Shown: positions 10,215 through 20,274, numbered from the stretch's first letter. The stretch is 64,000 nt of DNA from Phaeospirillum sp. (GCA_030651575.1 JAUSFB010000032.1:520001-584000); one strand, 5' to 3'. The notes: generated by a model not told the origin, from the sequence alone. Made by a program: numbers and translations.

Positions 10215-11168
10215 ATGTTGATCAACCGAACCGATTCCGCGACCTTTCAGGACCCGGAAGAAGTCTGCTCCAAGTCGCCATTCCGGGTTCTGGTGGTCGA
10301 AGACGATCTCGTTCACTTCACCTATTGCGAATACATCTTGCGCTCCATCTATGGCGACAAGCTGCTGCTGGAACGCGCGGTTGACTGCCTCGGCGCCATC
10401 GAGAAGCTGAACACCCAGGAATTCGAGATCTGCCTGCTGGACTATCTGGTCAAGGACGGCAACGCCAAGGACGTGCTGGCCCGCGTCGATTTCGGCCACG
10501 TCACCACCCCGGTCATCGTGGTCAGCGCCTTCGACGACCGCGACTTCGTGCTGGAAGCCTTGCGCCACGGCGCCGACGACTACGTCATCAAGGGCAAGTT
10601 CAGCGAAAACGACCTGCATCAGGCCATCCAGTATGCCATCTATCGCAAATACAAGGAGTTGCGGCTGCGCCAACGCGCCCTGTACGACCCGCTGACCGGT
10701 CTGGCCAACCGCCACCTGCTGTTTGACCGCCTGGACGAAGTCCACCGCTTCTCCACCCGGCATGACGAGAAGTTCGCGGTCCTGGTCATCGACCTGGACA
10801 AGCTGAAACAGGTCAACGACACCATGGGTCACGAAGCCGGCGACCGCCTGATCCAGTGCTCCGCCAATGCCCTGATCGGCAGCATGCGGTCCAGCGACAC
10901 GATCGCCCGCGTCGGCGGCGACGAATTCGTCGCCATCTTGAAAAATATTCGGGACAAGGAGGGGGTGGCGCGCCTCTGCGACAGCATGCGACAGGCGATC
11001 GAGGCCAGGGCCGCGGCGGAGATCGGACTGACGAAGGATATCAGTTGCAGCATCGGCATTGCCGTCTTTCCCGATGACAGCTCCTCGCCGACCGAAATGC
11101 TGCGCATGGCCGACACCGCCATGTACACCGTCAAACGCGCTGGCGGCGGCAGCTTCAAGTTCGCCTGA
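10215..11168 (+). CDS. Response regulator with GGDEF diguanylate cyclase output
   Basis: This 317-aa protein has an N-terminal receiver (about 15-130), with the acidic pair in VVEDD and phosphoacceptor Asp in CLLDYLVKDG. The GGDEF domain (about 155-317) carries an intact active site, RVGGDEFVAIL. The inhibitory I-site RxxD is present as RSSD five residues before GGDEF, so product feedback is expected. It should make cyclic di-GMP from two GTP when phosphorylated. The ATG at 10215 follows GGGGGGATCGCC. The convergent gene next door also encodes a receiver-GGDEF protein. Confidence 0.92.
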   Translation: MLINRTDSATFQDPEEVCSKSPFRVLVVEDDLVHFTYCEYILRSIYGDKLLLERAVDCLGAIEKLNTQEFEICLLDYLVKDGNAKDVLARVDFGHVTTPVIVVSAFDDRDFVLEALRHGADDYVIKGKFSENDLHQAIQYAIYRKYKELRLRQRALYDPLTGLANRHLLFDRLDEVHRFSTRHDEKFAVLVIDLDKLKQVNDTMGHEAGDRLIQCSANALIGSMRSSDTIARVGGDEFVAILKNIRDKEGVARLCDSMRQAIEARAAAEIGLTKDISCSIGIAVFPDDSSSPTEMLRMADTAMYTVKRAGGGSFKFA

Positions 11169-12522: not shown

Positions 12523-12686
12523 GAAACAACTTTCCCCGAAATAACCAACAGGATTCATCGACTGTAGCGCATAACGGCAAGTGCAAGCACCCATGGAATG
12601 CCATATCATCGCCCTAATTCTGGGGGACACTCCCATCATCCCCCGCGACAAAACCCATGCTCGCGTTCCTACCGGAGGAAAATTCC

Positions 12687-13316
12687 ATGCGCCGCCTGCC
12701 CTCAGTCCTCGCCGTCCTTGCCAGCGGCCTTGCCCTGGCGGCGTGCCAGAAGGTTGACAACACCGCCGGAGCGCCGACCGTCTATATCGATCCAGGCAGT
12801 TCCGGCCCGGTCAAGGGCGTCGGTATCGAAAGCCAGGACATCGTCGGCATGACCGACCAGATGCTACGCGACATGCTGAGTCAGCCCCGGCTGGCCAATG
12901 CGGCCACACCTCCCAACGTGATCATCGACGCCGAGTATTTTTACAATGAAAGCTCGTCGCGGCTGAACAAGAACTCCATCACCGACCGTCTGCGCGTCGG
13001 CCTGAACCGGGCGGCGGGGGGCCGCATGCAGTTCGTCGGCCGCCACTACGCCGACATGGTGGCCAAGGAGCGCGATCTGAAACGCCAAGGCACGGTCGAC
13101 AGGGCCACCTTGCCGGCCGCCAAGGCGCAGAAGGGCGGCGACTTCCGCCTGGGGGGGCGCATCACCTCGCTCGATTCGCGCGATCCCAAGACCGGGATGA
13201 TGCAGCGTTACAACCAGATCATTTTCGAAATGGTCGACCTCGAATCCTCGGAAATCGTCTGGAGCGGCATCTACGAGTTCGCCAAGGCGGCCCAGGACGA
13301 CATCATCTATCGCTGA
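12687..13316 (+). CDS. LpoB-like outer membrane lipoprotein (penicillin-binding protein activator type)
   Basis: The start at 12687 is fixed by GGAGGAAAATTCC. The 209-aa product has a lipoprotein signal ending LALAAC, so the Cys becomes lipidated. The body (GIESQDIVGMTDQMLRDML to SSEIVWSGIYEFAKAA) matches the LpoB/YcfM fold. In E. coli LpoB reaches from the outer membrane to activate the peptidoglycan synthase PBP1B. The YcfL-like gene two places downstream echoes the E. coli ycfL-lpoB arrangement. Whether a PBP1B partner exists here cannot be seen from this window. Confidence 0.8.
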   Translation: MRRLPSVLAVLASGLALAACQKVDNTAGAPTVYIDPGSSGPVKGVGIESQDIVGMTDQMLRDMLSQPRLANAATPPNVIIDAEYFYNESSSRLNKNSITDRLRVGLNRAAGGRMQFVGRHYADMVAKERDLKRQGTVDRATLPAAKAQKGGDFRLGGRITSLDSRDPKTGMMQRYNQIIFEMVDLESSEIVWSGIYEFAKAAQDDIIYR

Positions 13317-13341
13317 CACCGTCAAACAAGGAATCGCGGCC

Positions 13342-14733
13342 ATGGCCGTCGCGGGCAGATCACGGTGGAGCGCGCGTCTCCTGGCGTCGGGCATGGCGGC
13401 GGCCCTGCTCGGCGGCTGCGTCACCGCCCGCGAGCAGGAGGCCCGCTTTGACGCCGGCACCGTGCACGCCTATATCGACGACAAGCCGCCGGAGCTTCGC
13501 CGCCACTTCTACATCGCCCAGGCCCAGGGGCAGCGCAATCGCATCCTCAACGATATGCGCCTTGGCCTCGCGACCTTCGCCATGGGGCGAAACCAACTGG
13601 CCGAACAGCTGTTCGACGACGCCCTTCAGGGGATCGAGGCGGTCTATGCCGATAACGAGGAGGCCAAGAAGGCCCGCCAATTGCTGGTCAAGGAGCAGAG
13701 CAAGGACTTCAAGGGCGAGCCCTACGAACGGGTCATGGCCTATTACTACCGGGGCCTGCTCTATCTGCGGACCGGCGACTACCAGAACGCCAGGGCCAGC
13801 TTCAAGGGCGGCATGTTGCAAGACGCCTTCGCCGAGGAAGAGCAGTTCCGCGCCGACTTCGCCCTGATGCCTTTCCTCCAGGGCTGGGCCGCCCATTGCG
13901 GCGGCCAAAGCTCGCTGGCGGCCGAGGATTTCAAGGAATTCCGCGACATCAACAAGGACGCGCCGCTGCCGCGCGACCAGGATACCGTGCTGGTCCTGGT
14001 GGAAACCGGCGGCGCCCCGGTCAAGGTCTCGGAAGGCCCCCGTCTCAAGATCCGCCGCAACGGCGCCGCCGAGACCGCCCGCATCCTGTGGACCGATCCG
14101 GAGCACCCAAAGGATCGCCCCAAGGACGCAACCCACGTGCTGGAAGACATCTACCGGCAGGCCTCGACTCGGGGCGGGCGTCAGTTCGACGCCATCCTGG
14201 AGGGTAAGGCGGAATACAAGTCGGCCGCCGACACGGTCGGCAACGTCGCCTTGGTCGGGGCGGTCATCGCCGGACAGGTCGCCGTCAGCAACAGCCCGCG
14301 CCGGGGCGCCAGCAAGCAGGACCGCGAACGCCAGCAGGAAATCCAACGCGACGCCGCCATGGTCGGAGGCGCCCTAGCCGTCATCGGGCTGCTGTCCAAG
14401 GCGGCCGCCCACGCCATCGAGTCCGAGGCCGATATCCGCTACTGGGACAACCTGTCCGACCGCGTCCTTGGCGTCACCCTGGCCCTACCCGACCGTATCC
14501 AGAAGATCCGGGTCGAGTTCGGCGAGAACCACCGCCCCGTCGAAGTTCCCATCGTCCGGTCCGGGCGCTGCGGCATCGCCTGGGTCCGCAACGGCAACAC
14601 CCTGCCCAGCAACCCCCGCGCCCCCAACAGCGCGCCCTCCGACGTAATGACCAGTCCGGTGATCATCCCGGCGGCTCCCGCCCCGCCGGGTCCGGTGACC
14701 ACACCGCAAAAAGCCGAAGTCCAAAAGGAGTAA
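13342..14733 (+). CDS. Lipoprotein of the LpoB/YcfL-associated cluster, helical repeat type
   Basis: This 463-aa protein has a lipobox (LLGGC, residues 24-28). TPR-like helical repeats follow in the first half (YYYRGLLYLRTGDYQNARASFKGG). A middle region has a glycine- and basic-rich segment (QVAVSNSPRRGASKQ), and a short membrane-like helix (MVGGALAVIGLLSKAAAHAI) sits near residue 340. The Pro-rich tail is probably unstructured. I recognise it as the conserved uncharacterised family that travels with LpoB- and YcfL-like lipoproteins; the molecular role is unknown. It is 25 nt after the LpoB-like gene and 5 nt before the YcfL-like gene, so it is co-transcribed with both. Confidence 0.75.
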   Translation: MAVAGRSRWSARLLASGMAAALLGGCVTAREQEARFDAGTVHAYIDDKPPELRRHFYIAQAQGQRNRILNDMRLGLATFAMGRNQLAEQLFDDALQGIEAVYADNEEAKKARQLLVKEQSKDFKGEPYERVMAYYYRGLLYLRTGDYQNARASFKGGMLQDAFAEEEQFRADFALMPFLQGWAAHCGGQSSLAAEDFKEFRDINKDAPLPRDQDTVLVLVETGGAPVKVSEGPRLKIRRNGAAETARILWTDPEHPKDRPKDATHVLEDIYRQASTRGGRQFDAILEGKAEYKSAADTVGNVALVGAVIAGQVAVSNSPRRGASKQDRERQQEIQRDAAMVGGALAVIGLLSKAAAHAIESEADIRYWDNLSDRVLGVTLALPDRIQKIRVEFGENHRPVEVPIVRSGRCGIAWVRNGNTLPSNPRAPNSAPSDVMTSPVIIPAAPAPPGPVTTPQKAEVQKE

Positions 14734-14738
14734 GACCC

Positions 14739-15206
14739 ATGAGACGCTTGCTTGCCACCACCTTCGGCCTTGTTTTGCTCGGCGGCTGCACCACCATGGA
14801 CCCGGCGCCCCGCTGCGACATGGGCCGGATATCGAGCCAGCGCGATCTGGTTCCGGGGCCGGCCATGGTGCCGGGCGAAAGCTCACCGCTAAAGGAAATG
14901 CCGCTGAATTCGGTCAACATCACCGATGAAGGCATCCTCAACAAACTCTATGTCCGCACCATCACCGCCCGCCGGACCGCCACCGGCACGGTCGAAGTGA
15001 TAGCCCAGGTGGTCAACTGCACCGACTTTCCGCTGAACGCCGAAGCGCGCACCCAGTTCTACGACGCGAATCCGGCCCCGTCCGAGCCGGTCAGCGCCTG
15101 GAAGCGGATTCACCTGTCGCCCCGAACCTCCAACGTCTACAGCGAGTTCTCCATGGGAGCCCAGACGGTGGACGGCTACATGATCGAGATGAGGGAAACA
15201 AAATGA
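14739..15206 (+). CDS. YcfL/DUF1425 family lipoprotein
   Basis: This 155-aa protein has a lipobox LLGGC at the N-terminus. A single beta-rich domain follows (VEVIAQVVNCTDFPLNAEARTQFYD to YMIEMRETK), matching the DUF1425/YcfL pattern. The family is found beside LpoB-like genes but has no established activity. AAAGGAG lies 10 nt before the ATG. The stop overlaps the start of the next gene by 4 nt (ATGA), which couples their translation. Confidence 0.8.
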   Translation: MRRLLATTFGLVLLGGCTTMDPAPRCDMGRISSQRDLVPGPAMVPGESSPLKEMPLNSVNITDEGILNKLYVRTITARRTATGTVEVIAQVVNCTDFPLNAEARTQFYDANPAPSEPVSAWKRIHLSPRTSNVYSEFSMGAQTVDGYMIEMRETK

Positions 15207-16381
15207 CCCGCACTCCGCTTTCCCTGCTGCTGGCGGCTGCGCTTTTGCTGCCGTTCGGCGCCGTCGGGCAGACCGTCGGCGGCAAGGTGCCGCCCTATCA
15301 GGCCCCGGCCAAGGTCGCCCCGCCGGCGCGCGATGGTCAGGACGCCGATGTCAACTTCGACAAGACGGCCCGTCCGGACCCGTTCAAGCCGCGCGAGGAC
15401 CTTGTCCAGCAATTCTCCGCCGCCTATGCCAAGGGCGGACGGCCGCGTCTGGCCTTCTACTGGAACCGCCAACTGACCGATACCCTGGCCCAGTGGTACA
15501 GCGACAGCCGCACCATCACCTCCAGCAAGACCGCCAACGCGACCGAGGGCGACCTGACCCTCAAGCAATCCGGTTCCAGCCAGAATACGGTCGAGACCCA
15601 GCGCCGCGCCACGACGGAATCCACCCGCGGCCAGCCGGCCGAAACCTGGGAGTGGGAGTTTCAGGACGGGTTCCTGGCCCCCTTCCTGCAAGCCGACGCC
15701 ATCGTGGTCGACCGCACGGCCATCATGCGCATCATGGGGGCCGGGGCAGAGGAGATCGAGCCCCGCACCGTCGAGGTCATGGCCTTGCAGAACATGGCCG
15801 ATCTGTTGGTCGAGGTGCTGGTAAGCGATTCCGCCAAGGCGACCACCGGCTACGAACTGCGCGCCCGCATCCTGGACGTCCGCACCGGGCGCATCCTCGC
15901 CATGGTCAACAGCCGTGGGCTGAGGGAATGGCAGCAACAGGAAAAGGTGACGGCGACCTCACGCGGGTTCGACCTGCCCGACGAGGACGACGAGACCTTC
16001 GGCCCCGAGCGGGCCGACCAACGCTACAAGGCGACCGCCAGCGGCTTCGAGCGCAAGCGCAAGCCACCCAAGCTGAACGCCATCGCCGGCAACCTGGCCC
16101 ACAACGTCATGACCGGCATGATTCCCCGGCTGGAAAGCGGCCCCGCCGCCGCGCCGCCGGCGACTCCGGTCACCAGGGCCGCACCCGCCCCAACGACCTC
16201 GGCCCCCATGCCGCTGCCCCCGCCAAAACCGACCGTCGAGGCCAAGGCCGCCCCCAGTCAAAGCGCAGTGCCGCTACCCGATGTGGACGCCACGCCGCTG
16301 CCCGCTCCCACCAAGACAACCCCGGTTCCCGAAGCGCCGGCCGGGGAAGAGCCGCCCATGCCGCGTCCGACCAAGCAATAA
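15203..16381 (+). CDS. Exported Pro-rich protein of the lipoprotein cluster, family not recognised
   Basis: The first ~25 residues form a Sec signal peptide ending near AVGQ, so this 392-aa product enters the periplasm. The central part (about 60-250) is a folded domain with FYWNRQLTDTLAQWY and MRIMGAGAEEIEPRTVEVMALQNMADLLVEVLV. It is reminiscent of the nucleotide-free alpha/beta domains in LpoB-like proteins, but I cannot assign a family. The last ~100 residues are Pro/Ala-rich, like a tail that spans peptidoglycan. Translationally coupled to the YcfL-like gene, it probably works with the other three cluster proteins in the cell envelope. Confidence 0.7.
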   Translation: MTRTPLSLLLAAALLLPFGAVGQTVGGKVPPYQAPAKVAPPARDGQDADVNFDKTARPDPFKPREDLVQQFSAAYAKGGRPRLAFYWNRQLTDTLAQWYSDSRTITSSKTANATEGDLTLKQSGSSQNTVETQRRATTESTRGQPAETWEWEFQDGFLAPFLQADAIVVDRTAIMRIMGAGAEEIEPRTVEVMALQNMADLLVEVLVSDSAKATTGYELRARILDVRTGRILAMVNSRGLREWQQQEKVTATSRGFDLPDEDDETFGPERADQRYKATASGFERKRKPPKLNAIAGNLAHNVMTGMIPRLESGPAAAPPATPVTRAAPAPTTSAPMPLPPPKPTVEAKAAPSQSAVPLPDVDATPLPAPTKTTPVPEAPAGEEPPMPRPTKQ

Positions 16382-16424
16382 AAAAGCCCATCCCCGCCAA
16401 GAACACCGTCCTTGGCGGGGATGG
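16381..16424 (-). terminator. Rho-independent terminator of the cbpAB transcript
   Basis: CCATCCCCGCCAAG (16388-16401) pairs perfectly with CTTGGCGGGGATGG (16411-16424): 14 bp with a 9-nt loop. Read on the minus strand, the hairpin is followed by GGGCTTTTT, so it ends the radical SAM operon. It may also slow plus-strand transcription coming from the lipoprotein cluster, but there is no T-run on that side. Confidence 0.85.
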
Positions 16425-16433
16425 ATCGCCTCG

Positions 16434-17804
16434 TCAGCAGCCAAAGGAAAAGGCAGTCTCGGTGCCTTCGTCCCAGCCGTCCCACAGGTAATCGTCGGCG
16501 ACGCCATCGGCGATCAGACGGAAGGCATAGCGCGCCTGTTCCAGATAAAAGCCGCAATAGGCCCCGATCTGATCCATGCCGCCATTGGCCTCGTGCGCCT
16601 CGGCCGGACAGGGTGAGCCGCAGAAGTGGCGAACCGGACAGGGCGCACAGGCGGCGATATCCTCGACCTTGCGCCCGGTCACCTGCTTGAAGGCCGGACT
16701 GTTCAGCACATCCTCGACCCGGTCGGTGAACAGATTGCCGCCGGCGAAATCCGGCAGGCCGATAAACTCGCTGCACGGGAACAGCGAGCCGTCGGGCGCC
16801 AGGGCAAAGAAACTGCGCCCGCCGCCGCAGGGCGAGATATCGCACATCAGCCGCCGCGCCGTCGGCGCCAGGATCGAAATCAGGATATTGGCGAAATTGG
16901 CCACCACCATCTTGCGACCGGTCTGGCGGAACAGCTCGTGCGAACGGTCCAGCGCCGCCAGATAGGCTTTCGACACCGCCTGATCCTCGACCCAGGCATC
17001 GCGGCCGCCCGGCTGGGTGCAACGCACCACGTTGAGCATGCAGGCCGGCACCTCATGGGCGTGGAGGAACTCCACCATGGGGGTCAGCTGCTCCAGATTT
17101 TCACGGTTCATGGTGCAGATGACGCTATAGCCGGCATAGCCCTTGAGACGCTTGATGGCGTCCACCGTCGAAGCGAACACGCCGTCGCCGTTCCAACGCT
17201 TGCGCGAGCGATCGGCCACCTCGGACAGCGGCGCGTCCAGGGACAGGCCGATGCTGACCCCACGGGCCACCAGAAAGTCCATCGTACCCATGTCCAGCAT
17301 GGTGGCGTTGGTCTGGACCCCAAAGCGAAAGCGGTCGCCATAGGCGTCGATGGCGGCGAACATGGCGTTGCGGTTCAGCAGCGGCTCGGCGCCGTGGAAG
17401 ATGATCTGAGGGGTGCGGCCCTCCGGCATGGTGCGGGCGAAATACTCGTCCAGCCGCGCCATGGCGTCCATCAACCTTTCCTGGCTCATATGCTCGCCGT
17501 TGCGGCGCATATCACGCGGGATATAGCAATAAGAACAGTCGAGATTGCATCGCTCGGTCGGATTGAAATAGACCGCCGATGGGGTAAGGTGAAAGCGCAG
17601 CATCTCCATCTCGCGCAGGAACTCGGCCCGCCGGGCCTGCCATTCCGCCACCACGGCATCGCGTTCGCCGGTTTGATCCTTGCGTTCCAGCGCCCAGAAA
17701 GCGGCGTCGGGATCGATCAGGGCGGTGTAGTCGGCATGGCCGATATCGAACCGCAGGAGGCCGTCGGGAAGACGGCCCCCAAGAATGGGGGCCGCCACGG
17801 TCAC
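16434..17804 (-). CDS. cbpB: Peptide-modifying radical SAM/SPASM enzyme, CbpB type
   Basis: This 456-aa protein has the radical SAM [4Fe-4S] motif CNLDCSYC (Cys 86, 90, 93). A C-terminal SPASM-type set of cysteines binds auxiliary clusters: Cys 321, 326, 344, 386, 389, 395, 399 and 417. SPASM proteins next to tiny genes usually modify the encoded peptide. The gene overlaps the 45-aa cbpA by 4 nt (ATGA), and both lie under a cobalamin riboswitch. That combination is what I know as the CbpA/CbpB peptide-modification pair. The chemistry performed is not known. A strong terminator follows 10 nt after the stop. Confidence 0.85.
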   Translation of the reverse strand: MTVAAPILGGRLPDGLLRFDIGHADYTALIDPDAAFWALERKDQTGERDAVVAEWQARRAEFLREMEMLRFHLTPSAVYFNPTERCNLDCSYCYIPRDMRRNGEHMSQERLMDAMARLDEYFARTMPEGRTPQIIFHGAEPLLNRNAMFAAIDAYGDRFRFGVQTNATMLDMGTMDFLVARGVSIGLSLDAPLSEVADRSRKRWNGDGVFASTVDAIKRLKGYAGYSVICTMNRENLEQLTPMVEFLHAHEVPACMLNVVRCTQPGGRDAWVEDQAVSKAYLAALDRSHELFRQTGRKMVVANFANILISILAPTARRLMCDISPCGGGRSFFALAPDGSLFPCSEFIGLPDFAGGNLFTDRVEDVLNSPAFKQVTGRKVEDIAACAPCPVRHFCGSPCPAEAHEANGGMDQIGAYCGFYLEQARYAFRLIADGVADDYLWDGWDEGTETAFSFGC

Positions 17805-17938
17805 CGCTTCACCTGCTTGTCCATCAAGACATAATGCGACAGGCCGGTACCCTCGGCATCGCAGGTCTTGCGGGTGGCGATGATCGCCGGACGGGTCTTG
17901 GAAGGCTGCTTGGCGGTGACATCCTCGGTCTTGGTCAT
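17801..17938 (-). CDS. cbpA: Modified-peptide precursor, CbpA type (45 aa)
   Basis: This ATG start is hidden inside a longer ORF in the track. GGGAG lies about 9 nt before the ATG at 17938. The peptide has a Lys/Thr-rich leader-like first half and a distinctive second half, IIATRKTCDAEGTGLSHYV followed by LMDKQVKR, with a single Cys at position 26. It has no signal peptide or membrane segment. The stop overlaps the start of the radical SAM gene by 4 nt, so the two are translated together. It is the predicted substrate of CbpB, with the Cys-containing segment as the likely core. Confidence 0.8.
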   Translation of the reverse strand: MTKTEDVTAKQPSKTRPAIIATRKTCDAEGTGLSHYVLMDKQVKR

Positions 17939-17963
17939 GGGTCTAACTCCCGTTGATCGGGGC

Positions 17964-17995
17964 TTCGGCAAGGGCGTGCGGACGCCTTCGCCGAA
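17964..17995 (-). promoter_or_regulatory. Leader hairpin between cobalamin aptamer and cbpA (candidate expression platform)
   Basis: On the minus strand TTCGGCGAAGGCGT pairs with ACGCCCTTGCCGAA: 14 pairs with one mismatch, one G-U and a CCGC loop. It sits between the riboswitch aptamer and the cbpA ribosome binding site. No T-run follows it, so control at translation initiation is more likely than transcription termination. Confidence 0.5.
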
Positions 17996-18036
17996 ACCCT
18001 TTTCCATCGGATTTCGCCCCGAGATGAACCATGTCC

Positions 18037-18210
18037 GGCAGGTCTTCTGGCTTTCGGATCGACCACGAAACCACACCTTCCCGACGGGATTCCGCCAGTG
18101 GTCGGGCTCGTGAAAGCCCATGTGGTCCGTGTCCCCGATTACAGCGGCGGGACCGCCACGGAATTTCACCGTGTTCCGGGATGCAGGACAACAGGGGCTT
18201 TACGCCGGCA
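18037..18210 (-). ncRNA. Cobalamin (adenosylcobalamin) riboswitch
   Basis: The minus strand shows the conserved parts of the B12 aptamer in order. GGAACACGGTGAAATTCCG is followed by a GCGGTCCCGCCGCTGTAA segment, then ACCACTGGCGG, CGGGAAGGTGTGG, and finally GCCAGAAGACCTGCC, the B12-box end. The aptamer begins just after the histidine kinase stop codon and ends about 100 nt before cbpA. It should lower expression of cbpAB when cobalamin is plentiful. I estimated the 5' boundary by eye. Confidence 0.93.
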
Positions 18211-18221
18211 AAGCGCCGCCG

Positions 18222-19631
18222 TCAAGTCTCCGTCATGCGCGTGAACCCCAACCGCACCTTAAGGCCGGGCTGATTGTCGCCCAGCATCAGGGCGGCCCCA
18301 TGCAGCCGCGCCACCGCCTGGACAAGCGACAGGCCCAGGCCGTTGCCGGGGGTGGTACGGGTGGAATCCAGGCGCACGAAGCGTTCCAGCACGGCTTCGC
18401 GTGAGGCCTCGGGGATACCCGGCCCGGAATCGTCCACCATCAGTTCCACCGCCCCGCCCTCGGCGGCACCCACCGACACGGTGACGCGGCCGCCGGCGGG
18501 GGTGTATTTAACGGCGTTGTCCACCAGATTGGCGACCGCCTGGAACAGCAGGTGACGATCACCCTTGACCATCAGCCCGGACTCGGCGTGGCAGAGCAGG
18601 CTGACATCCTTCTCCTCGGCCAGGGGCTCGTACAACTCGACCGCATCGGCGGCCAGGACGGCCAGATCGACCGGCTCGAACCGCTCCAGCCTTGCCGCCG
18701 ACTCGGCATGGGAGATGGTCAGGATGGCGTTGAAGGTGGCCAAGAGGTTATCGGCCTCGGCCATGGTCTCTTCCAGGGTGCGGCGATAGCCCTCGCAATC
18801 GGGCGCCCCCAGCAGGACCAGATCGATCCGCGACCGCAGGCGATTGAGCGGGGTGCGCAGATCATGGGCGATATTGTCGGAGACGGTGCGGATTCCCTCC
18901 AGCAGCCGCTCCAACTCGTCCATCATCTCGTTGAAGCTTTCGGCCAGGGAGTCGAACTCGTCATTGCTGCCCGACAGGGTCATGCGCTGGCTCATATCGC
19001 CGCCAAAGATGCGCCGGGCGGTGCGGCTCATCTCCTCGACCCGCTGGAGCATGTGGCGGCTGGTGAAGTAGCCGCCCACCACGCCGAGCAGGATGGTCAG
19101 CGCCAGGCCCCAGCCCAGCGCCCGGTTGATCGCCGACTTGACCCGCTTGGCGTCGGCCAGCGACCGGCCCACCAGCAGGCGGTAACCGTCGGCCAGTTCG
19201 TAGGCATGGGCCAGTATCTCGGTCCCCGGACCGATCCCGCCCACGGGCAGGACGCGGAAACGGACCCAGCCCAGCAGGTCGGAAACCTCCGACGGCCAGG
19301 CGCGCAGATTGCCGGCCAGGGGATGCCCGTCCAGCCCCATCACCAGATAGCTGGCGCGGCCGTCGATATCCTGGCGGGCGCGTTGAGTGATGATTTCGGC
19401 CAGACCGGCAAGATCGCGGTCGTGATAGACCTCGGACAGGCCGGTGGCCTCGGCCTCCACCGTCTCTTGCACCTGCCACTCGATGAACATGGTGGTGCTC
19501 CACGACACCAGCACCAGCAAGGCGATGGCCGAGACCGTGAAGATGCCAAGATAACTGAGCGCCAGCCGGAAGGTGGTGGTGCCGAGCAGGCTGGCGTCAG
19601 CGGGCCGCACGAAGCGTATACCCCGCGCCAC
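18222..19631 (-). CDS. Sensor histidine kinase (HAMP, HisKA, HATPase)
   Basis: This membrane kinase of about 469 aa has TM1 near residues 22-45, a periplasmic sensor region of about 120 residues and TM2 near 170. HAMP follows, then the phosphoacceptor motif NIAHDLRTPLNRLRSR and the ATP-binding N and G boxes (NLVDNAVKYTP, DSGPGIP, GNGLGLSLV). It pairs with the response regulator just upstream, overlapping its 3' end by up to 35 nt. The start is uncertain: 19631 is GTG, and a second GTG at 19610 cuts the overlap to 14 nt. The signal sensed is unknown. The cobalamin riboswitch follows its stop codon. Confidence 0.9.
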   Translation of the reverse strand: MARGIRFVRPADASLLGTTTFRLALSYLGIFTVSAIALLVLVSWSTTMFIEWQVQETVEAEATGLSEVYHDRDLAGLAEIITQRARQDIDGRASYLVMGLDGHPLAGNLRAWPSEVSDLLGWVRFRVLPVGGIGPGTEILAHAYELADGYRLLVGRSLADAKRVKSAINRALGWGLALTILLGVVGGYFTSRHMLQRVEEMSRTARRIFGGDMSQRMTLSGSNDEFDSLAESFNEMMDELERLLEGIRTVSDNIAHDLRTPLNRLRSRIDLVLLGAPDCEGYRRTLEETMAEADNLLATFNAILTISHAESAARLERFEPVDLAVLAADAVELYEPLAEEKDVSLLCHAESGLMVKGDRHLLFQAVANLVDNAVKYTPAGGRVTVSVGAAEGGAVELMVDDSGPGIPEASREAVLERFVRLDSTRTTPGNGLGLSLVQAVARLHGAALMLGDNQPGLKVRLGFTRMTET

Positions 19632-20274
19632 GAACCGTATGAATCAGCGGCAGTTCGAAATCCTTGTCCACCTTCTGACGCAACCGGCTGATATGGACGT
19701 CGATCAGGTTGGTCTGGGGATCGAAATGATATTCCCAGACATTCTCCAGCAGCATGGTCCGCGTCACCACCTGACCGGCATAGCGCATGAGGTATTCCAG
19801 CAGGCGGAATTCACGCGGCTGGAGATCGATGCTTTGTCCGCCCCGGCTGACGCTGCGGGCCAGCAGATCCATCTCCAGATCCTCGACCTTCAGCTTGGTC
19901 TCGGGCTGGGCCGCCGAGACCCGGCGCGACAACGCCTCGATCCGGGCCAGCAGCTCGGCGAAGGCATAGGGCTTGACCAGATAGTCGTCGCCCCCCGCCT
20001 TCAGGCCGCGAACCCGGTCATCGACCTTGCCCAGCGCCGACAGCACCAGAACCGGCGTGGTGTTGCCGGCGGCGCGGATGGCCTGGATGATGGCCAGACC
20101 GTCCAGGCCCGGCAGCATTCGGTCGATGATCATGGCGTCCCAGCGTTCCGACGTGGCCAGGAACAGGCCATCGGTGCCGGTGGCGGCATGATCGATCACA
20201 TGACCCGCCTCCCTCAGTCCCTTCGCCATATAGGCGGCGGCTTCGCTATCATCCTCGATCAACAGGATTCGCAT
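19597..20274 (-). CDS. OmpR/PhoB family response regulator
   Basis: This 225-aa protein is a receiver plus winged-helix DNA-binding domain. The acidic pair is IEDD, the phosphoacceptor Asp is in MIIDRMLPGLDG, and the conserved Lys is in DDYLVKPYAF. The C-terminal half carries the OmpR-type signature LQPREFRLLEYLMRYAGQVVTR and TVRGAGYTLR. It is the first gene of a two-component operon with the kinase that follows. The layout resembles QseB/CusR-type regulators, but target genes cannot be inferred. The riboswitch and cbpAB lie co-directionally downstream. Confidence 0.92.
   Translation of the reverse strand: MRILLIEDDSEAAAYMAKGLREAGHVIDHAATGTDGLFLATSERWDAMIIDRMLPGLDGLAIIQAIRAAGNTTPVLVLSALGKVDDRVRGLKAGGDDYLVKPYAFAELLARIEALSRRVSAAQPETKLKVEDLEMDLLARSVSRGGQSIDLQPREFRLLEYLMRYAGQVVTRTMLLENVWEYHFDPQTNLIDVHISRLRQKVDKDFELPLIHTVRGAGYTLRAAR

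Follow-up and report, generated by a model that had tools for sequence, protein, structure and literature searches.

Cobalamin metabolism passes for well charted, yet cbpAB, a module with a conserved core and no described function, occurs in several lineages within B12 operons and under riboswitch control. What does a tiny peptide gene (cbpA), followed by the gene of a radical SAM/SPASM enzyme (cbpB), contribute to a cell that keeps both behind a cobalamin riboswitch? Since the two genes are strictly paired, the precursor is nearly leader-less with a minimal form of 29 aa, and hosts can be cultured, this question is directly testable. The copy analyzed here lies in a stretch of 64,000 nucleotides of Phaeospirillum sp. 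DNA (the window), belonging to a 4.2 Mb genome. Its minus strand carries, from 18224 down to 16380, the following elements in order:

18020..18224, minus strand: cobalamin riboswitch aptamer (RF00174, 78.7 bits, E 1e-17, model positions 1-189)
17960..17999, minus strand: expression-platform hairpin of 40 nt, without a U-run (RNA fold)
17947..17952, minus strand: Shine-Dalgarno of cbpA, CGGGAG (read from the sequence)
17801..17938, minus strand: cbpA, 45-aa precursor MTKTEDVTAKQPSKTRPAIIATRKTCDAEGTGLSHYVLMDKQVKR (TIGR04164, 56.1 bits)
16434..17804, minus strand: cbpB, 456-aa radical SAM/SPASM enzyme (TIGR04163, 726.6 bits; PF04055, PF13186)
16380..16424, minus strand: intrinsic terminator of the cbpAB transcript (stem of ~17 bp and U-run)

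The original prediction, made from the sequence of the window, had placed here a B12 aptamer, the gene of a 45-aa peptide with one Cys, a SPASM enzyme gene overlapping it by 4 nt, and a 14-bp terminator. The aptamer was recovered over the full model length as the sole Rfam match in the window, against a gathering threshold of 31.5 bits. The peptide contained the single Cys and the core TRKTCDAEGTGLSHYV exactly as quoted (TIGR04164, E 1.8e-15), and cbpB, coding for a SPASM domain, started with GTG in a 4-nt overlap with the cbpA stop codon (GTGA). The terminator also proved real (stem at 16388-16424, -37.5 kcal/mol, z -6.7 by RNA fold, followed by a U-run), its stem of ~17 bp being longer than stated, the one point in which that prediction had described the locus wrongly. 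Since it is located at the 3' end of a convergent plus-strand ORF (15203-16381), it may serve both strands. The hairpin at 17960-17999, between aptamer and Shine-Dalgarno, was absent from that prediction.

The locus belongs to the named CbpA/CbpB family: both proteins scored far above the equivalog cut-offs of TIGR04164 (modified peptide precursor CbpA; cut-off 35 bits) and TIGR04163 (peptide-modifying radical SAM enzyme CbpB; cut-off 375 bits), and no difference from the family was seen. Since, in addition, the arrangement recurs across phyla, the locus does not represent a chance association. The pair had been described as named and without an assigned function, and we agree: a plasmid homologue is annotated as CbpA/CbpB, and no paper on the pair or its function was found in literature searched mostly outside subscription journals. 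Within that same literature no description was found of the placement in B12 operons, the minimal and two-core precursors or the terminator platforms reported below; these, together with the cross-phylum core, are new here, the gene pair itself being already named.

CbpB was present in 24/55 genomes of the same GTDB family, in 26/297 genomes of the order sample and in 1/385 genomes of the class sample, the closest named protein being that of an uncultured Magnetospirillum (92% identical). CbpA accompanied it in each of the 24 positive genomes of the family, and none of the 55 contained cbpA without cbpB. A scan of public genomes yielded 176 CbpB relatives, 80 of which were kept as the basis of the locus counts, so remote forms may be missed. 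These 80 came from Alphaproteobacteria, Gammaproteobacteria, Nitrospirota, Nitrospinota and several former Deltaproteobacteria, and further from Chloroflexota, Planctomycetota, Verrucomicrobiota, Melainabacteria, bins named Bacillota, Actinomycetes and others, a spread in which some bin names may be contaminants. Identity to the CbpB of the window was mostly 57-66%, even between phyla; all 44 aligned relatives matched TIGR04163, and the alphaproteobacterial proteins formed one group on the CbpB tree.

As had been proposed for checking the prediction, CbpA homologues were aligned in search of a conserved Cys core. At 79/79 assessable loci (leaving out L128, which is cut off) cbpA lay directly upstream of cbpB and encoded the core VIAxRKxCxxxGxGLSHY, in many phyla; the scan pattern fixes some of the residues counted as invariant, and no assessable locus failed it. 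The unit consensus was [VI]IAxR[KR]xCxxxGxGLSH[YF][IV]LMD, and R, C, G, G, L, S and H were identical in all 81 aligned units, the Cys included. Differences at codon positions 1, 2 and 3 (0.21, 0.12 and 0.50) fell mainly on the third, a synonymous-biased pattern indicating selection on the CbpA protein. The flanks of the unit were variable, both in how long they are and in their sequence. In the shortest precursor, MKDVIAYRKNCSADGTGLSHYIMIVAKPK (29 aa, L134-type), two residues stand ahead of the unit, and a classical leader is therefore not needed. At the other extreme, three gammaproteobacteria, relatives of Sedimenticola and Neptunomonas (L095, L104, L120), carry upstream of cbpB a CbpA with two core units in tandem, joined by variable linkers. 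These two-core forms, the basic conserved RK motif and the Lys-rich tails would suit a modified CbpA that binds RNA or protein as a regulator and tunes B12 metabolism or radical SAM/corrinoid enzymes; we regard this role as improbable.

CbpB contains a CX3CX2C radical SAM motif and a SPASM domain (PF04055, PF13186). The radical SAM cysteines (86, 90 and 93) and eight cysteines of the SPASM region (321, 326, 344, 386, 389, 395, 399 and 417) were invariant in 44 diverse sequences. An AF2 model (mean pLDDT 88.6) had CteB, anSMEcpe and ChlB as its nearest solved folds, followed by TigE and SuiB. No Pfam match to an RRE/PqqD-like domain was found in CbpB, and in the model the radical SAM domain is preceded by one long helix together with three short strands. 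An RRE is defined by three helices plus three strands (PMC7470986); judging from the model, a typical RRE is not evident in CbpB.

Among the known systems closest to CbpAB is SCIFF/ranthipeptide (CteA/CteB), which likewise pairs a small conserved precursor with an adjoining SPASM enzyme; CteB was the best match of CbpB in both PDB sequence and fold, anSME being the other best sequence match. However, the SCIFF precursor has six Cys and CbpA one, with almost no leader, and CbpB scored 86 bits against the SCIFF-maturase model (cut-off 425), which places it outside that family. The wide spread of SCIFF has been taken as an argument against an antimicrobial role (PMC8326336). The next closest NCBIfam models, those of the PapB ranthipeptide and DynA dynobactin maturases (115.7 and 127.4 bits), have cut-offs far above these scores (340 and 450) and belong to systems with different precursors, for which we know of no B12 control. 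The enzyme anSMEcpe, which acts on Cys/Ser of a leaderless peptide, shares with CbpB its fold (TM 0.84 by target length) and its SPASM clusters, but the substrate of anSME is a sulfatase and CbpB remained below the anSME cut-off (101 versus 349 bits). What is known of such enzyme families makes it likely that the CbpA Cys, or a position close to it, would undergo a radical-based modification.

Regulation was analyzed next to the peptide genes of the 74 loci with enough upstream DNA for a riboswitch motif test. A cobalamin riboswitch occurred within 1 kb upstream at 59/74, versus 7/1606 control windows; cmscan added riboswitches at L097, L104 and L134, giving 62/74, and a further cmscan of seven loci agreed with the motif calls. 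In two more loci, L110 and L113, the riboswitch opens a longer operon. Between aptamer and cbpA, 32/60 loci had a strong hairpin followed by a U-run (AAAGGGTTCCGG...CCGGAACCCTTTTT), all of them except L067 outside the alphaproteobacterial group. Such a terminator platform in many relatives is consistent with a switch that turns OFF when B12 is high, with cobalamin repressing cbpAB through termination, a direction that we infer. Alphaproteobacterial platforms, that of the window included, were mostly hairpins without a U-run. In relatives outside the Alphaproteobacteria the element of the window hairpin (GATGGNAAAGGGTTyCGG...) is closed by a U-run, and the hairpin at 17960-17999 is apparently homologous to their terminator platform; in alphaproteobacteria, repression by cobalamin would probably act at translation. 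Only two cobalamin riboswitches were found in the genome of the window, one at cbpAB and one before cbiMNQO. The latter (118.5 bits; L138 16091-18832, G000:C70) precedes the cobalt transporter genes cbiM-cbiN-cbiQ-cbiO, beyond which the genes read as unrelated. A TPP riboswitch right downstream of cbpB at L117 (7697-7792) lies ahead of apparent thiamine genes and is independent of cbpAB.

Alphaproteobacterial cbpAB stands alone. At least 17 of the 80 loci, all non-alphaproteobacterial, had cobalamin or cobalt genes in their flanks, often co-directional, where about one would be expected by chance (a rough estimate from three B12 clusters per 3.3 Mb). Neighbors were named with NCBIfam for representatives, and cbiN and methyltransferases by eye:

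L113: cobT-cobS-cobC/Q-cbiB-cobO-cbiA-cbiC-[cbpAB]-cbiM-cbiN
L119: as L113 (cbiC-[cbpAB]-cbiMN), with cbiQ
L110: cbpAB-cbiX-cbiD
L135: cbiA-[cbpAB]-cbiM
L133: cbiA-[cbpAB]-cbiC
L105, L114 and L129: cbpAB-cobT, with cobT directly downstream
L095: cbpAB-cbiA
L104: cbpAB-cbiB

The B12-context label, given to 14 of these loci, calls for 10 changes on the CbpB tree, and therefore the association with B12 operons arose or was lost several times. Its occurrence in several lineages suggests that CbpAB helps to obtain or handle B12. The position beside cbiM or cbiX in L110, L113, L119 and L135 would agree with a role confined to de novo corrin synthesis, in taking up or inserting the cobalt that it needs. 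This is hard to reconcile with CbiC, which was found in 57/80 carrier genomes and not in 23/80, many of them incomplete MAGs, several CbpAB clades being consistently without detectable CbiC. Since CbiC was not found in those 23 carriers, a purely cobalt-insertion role is weakened, to a point where we hold it to be rather improbable, and CbpAB is not simply for corrin-ring synthesis. Where cobT follows directly (L105, L114, L129), the pair could be imagined to supply or activate the cobamide lower ligand as an anaerobic substitute for BluB, which would serve producers and salvagers alike. We consider this very improbable: a peptide is an unlikely source of benzimidazole, and replacement of BluB in alphaproteobacteria was rejected since BluB was present in 20/20 alphaproteobacterial carriers tested.

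The explanation we favor, with a probability of about 0.42, is that cbpAB is a cobalamin-repressed two-gene module of RiPP type, whose modified peptide stays inside the cell and aids cobalamin supply. It starts from the module, its conservation, the anatomy of its regulation and its association with B12 operons, all read directly from the DNA; to these it would add that CbpA is modified and at which site, which way cobalamin acts on expression, that the peptide stays in the cell and what it does there. At low cobalamin the unliganded riboswitch would allow CbpA and CbpB to be made. CbpB, a radical SAM enzyme that also has auxiliary iron-sulphur clusters, would recognize the VIAxRK stretch of CbpA itself, since there is almost no leader, and would modify the core C-x3-GxGLSH(Y/F). 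The most likely site is the invariant Cys, where a thioether or another radical crosslink might, for example, be formed. The modified peptide would then remain intracellular and assist cobalamin supply; our specific bet, guessed from the residues, is that it may bind or deliver cobalt or corrinoid through the conserved Cys and His. That cobalamin metabolism might have in CbpA its first factor derived from a peptide, radical-SAM-modified and binding cobalt or corrinoid or aiding a late supply step at scarce B12, in producers and possibly salvagers, is a more doubtful proposition, if a realistic one.

Riboswitch regulation and repeated operon membership tie the pair to cobalamin supply, and a role in that supply is further favored by cbiMNQO, the one other riboswitch target found in the genome of the window. 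The likeness of CbpB in sequence and fold to the thioether-forming CteB and to anSME also counts in favor, as do the strict pairing of CbpA and CbpB, the cross-phylum core and the 29-aa and two-core precursors. On the other side stand the lone alphaproteobacterial copies, the lack of a constant neighbor (no single B12 gene accompanied cbpAB throughout the 80 loci) and the weak link of CbiM presence to CbpAB (22/24 versus 22/31 in the family; also 14/23 versus 20/27), a comparison that says little, given that PF01891 could pick up nickel permeases as well and that many of the genomes are MAGs. Shared regulation alone might account for the co-transcription with B12 genes.

Apart from B12 genes, no conserved partner gene was found near cbpAB, and this bears on two other roles. 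Like PqqA/PqqE of PQQ biosynthesis, CbpAB combines a tiny precursor with a SPASM enzyme, and when B12 is scarce, isozymes such as MetE or NrdAB/D take over from B12-dependent reactions. CbpA could likewise be processed into a small redox cofactor resembling PQQ or mycofactocin, or into an enzyme activator, which would replace a B12-dependent reaction under scarcity. The conserved His and Tyr/Phe of the tiny precursor, the stand-alone riboswitch control of most loci and the presence of CbpAB in genomes with and without CbiC would be in keeping with this. However, PqqE was a far weaker structural match to CbpB, no PqqB/C/D-like partner, peptidase or other tailoring gene is conserved beside cbpAB, and the pair repeatedly lies inside B12 biosynthesis operons; the absence of accessory genes leans against a PQQ-like multi-step cofactor, and we judge this role unlikely. 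Export of modified CbpA, either as a methanobactin-like corrinoid or cobalt scavenger or to signal B12 starvation, would be compatible with its inferred production at low B12, its co-regulation with cobalt import in its own genome and its Cys/His core. Neither an exporter nor a protease/peptidase or receptor was found conserved beside cbpAB, and the core is nearly invariant across phyla, unlike that of typical signals or antimicrobials. This lack of such neighbors and of sequence diversification leans against a secreted signal, making export quite unlikely, and favors an intracellular modified peptide. The original prediction of a B12-controlled modified peptide was supported in part, in its RiPP-type pair and conserved Cys core, with the 24/24 co-occurrence and the terminator platforms adding to it; of the carrier, signal and replacement cofactor that it had offered, the latter two are less supported than a role in cobalamin supply.

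Several other features were observed around cbpAB genes. In the window, the convergent plus-strand cluster at 12657-16381 comprises four genes, coding for an LpoB-like lipoprotein (PF13036), a weakly matched TPR protein and two proteins without a Pfam match. Immediately upstream of the riboswitch (18222-20274, minus strand) are genes for a HAMP histidine kinase and an OmpR-type regulator, the kinase start overlapping the end of the regulator gene. A response-regulator/GGDEF protein is encoded at 10215-11168 (plus strand), and a relative of it also occurs near cbpAB in L058. A 278-kb Methylovirgula plasmid (NZ_CP073765.1; L139 11822-13401) carries cbpAB near pqqADE, and in a divergent bin named Actinomycetes (L130, from 7354, plus strand) a second protein clustering with CbpB is encoded ~2 kb downstream of cbpB.
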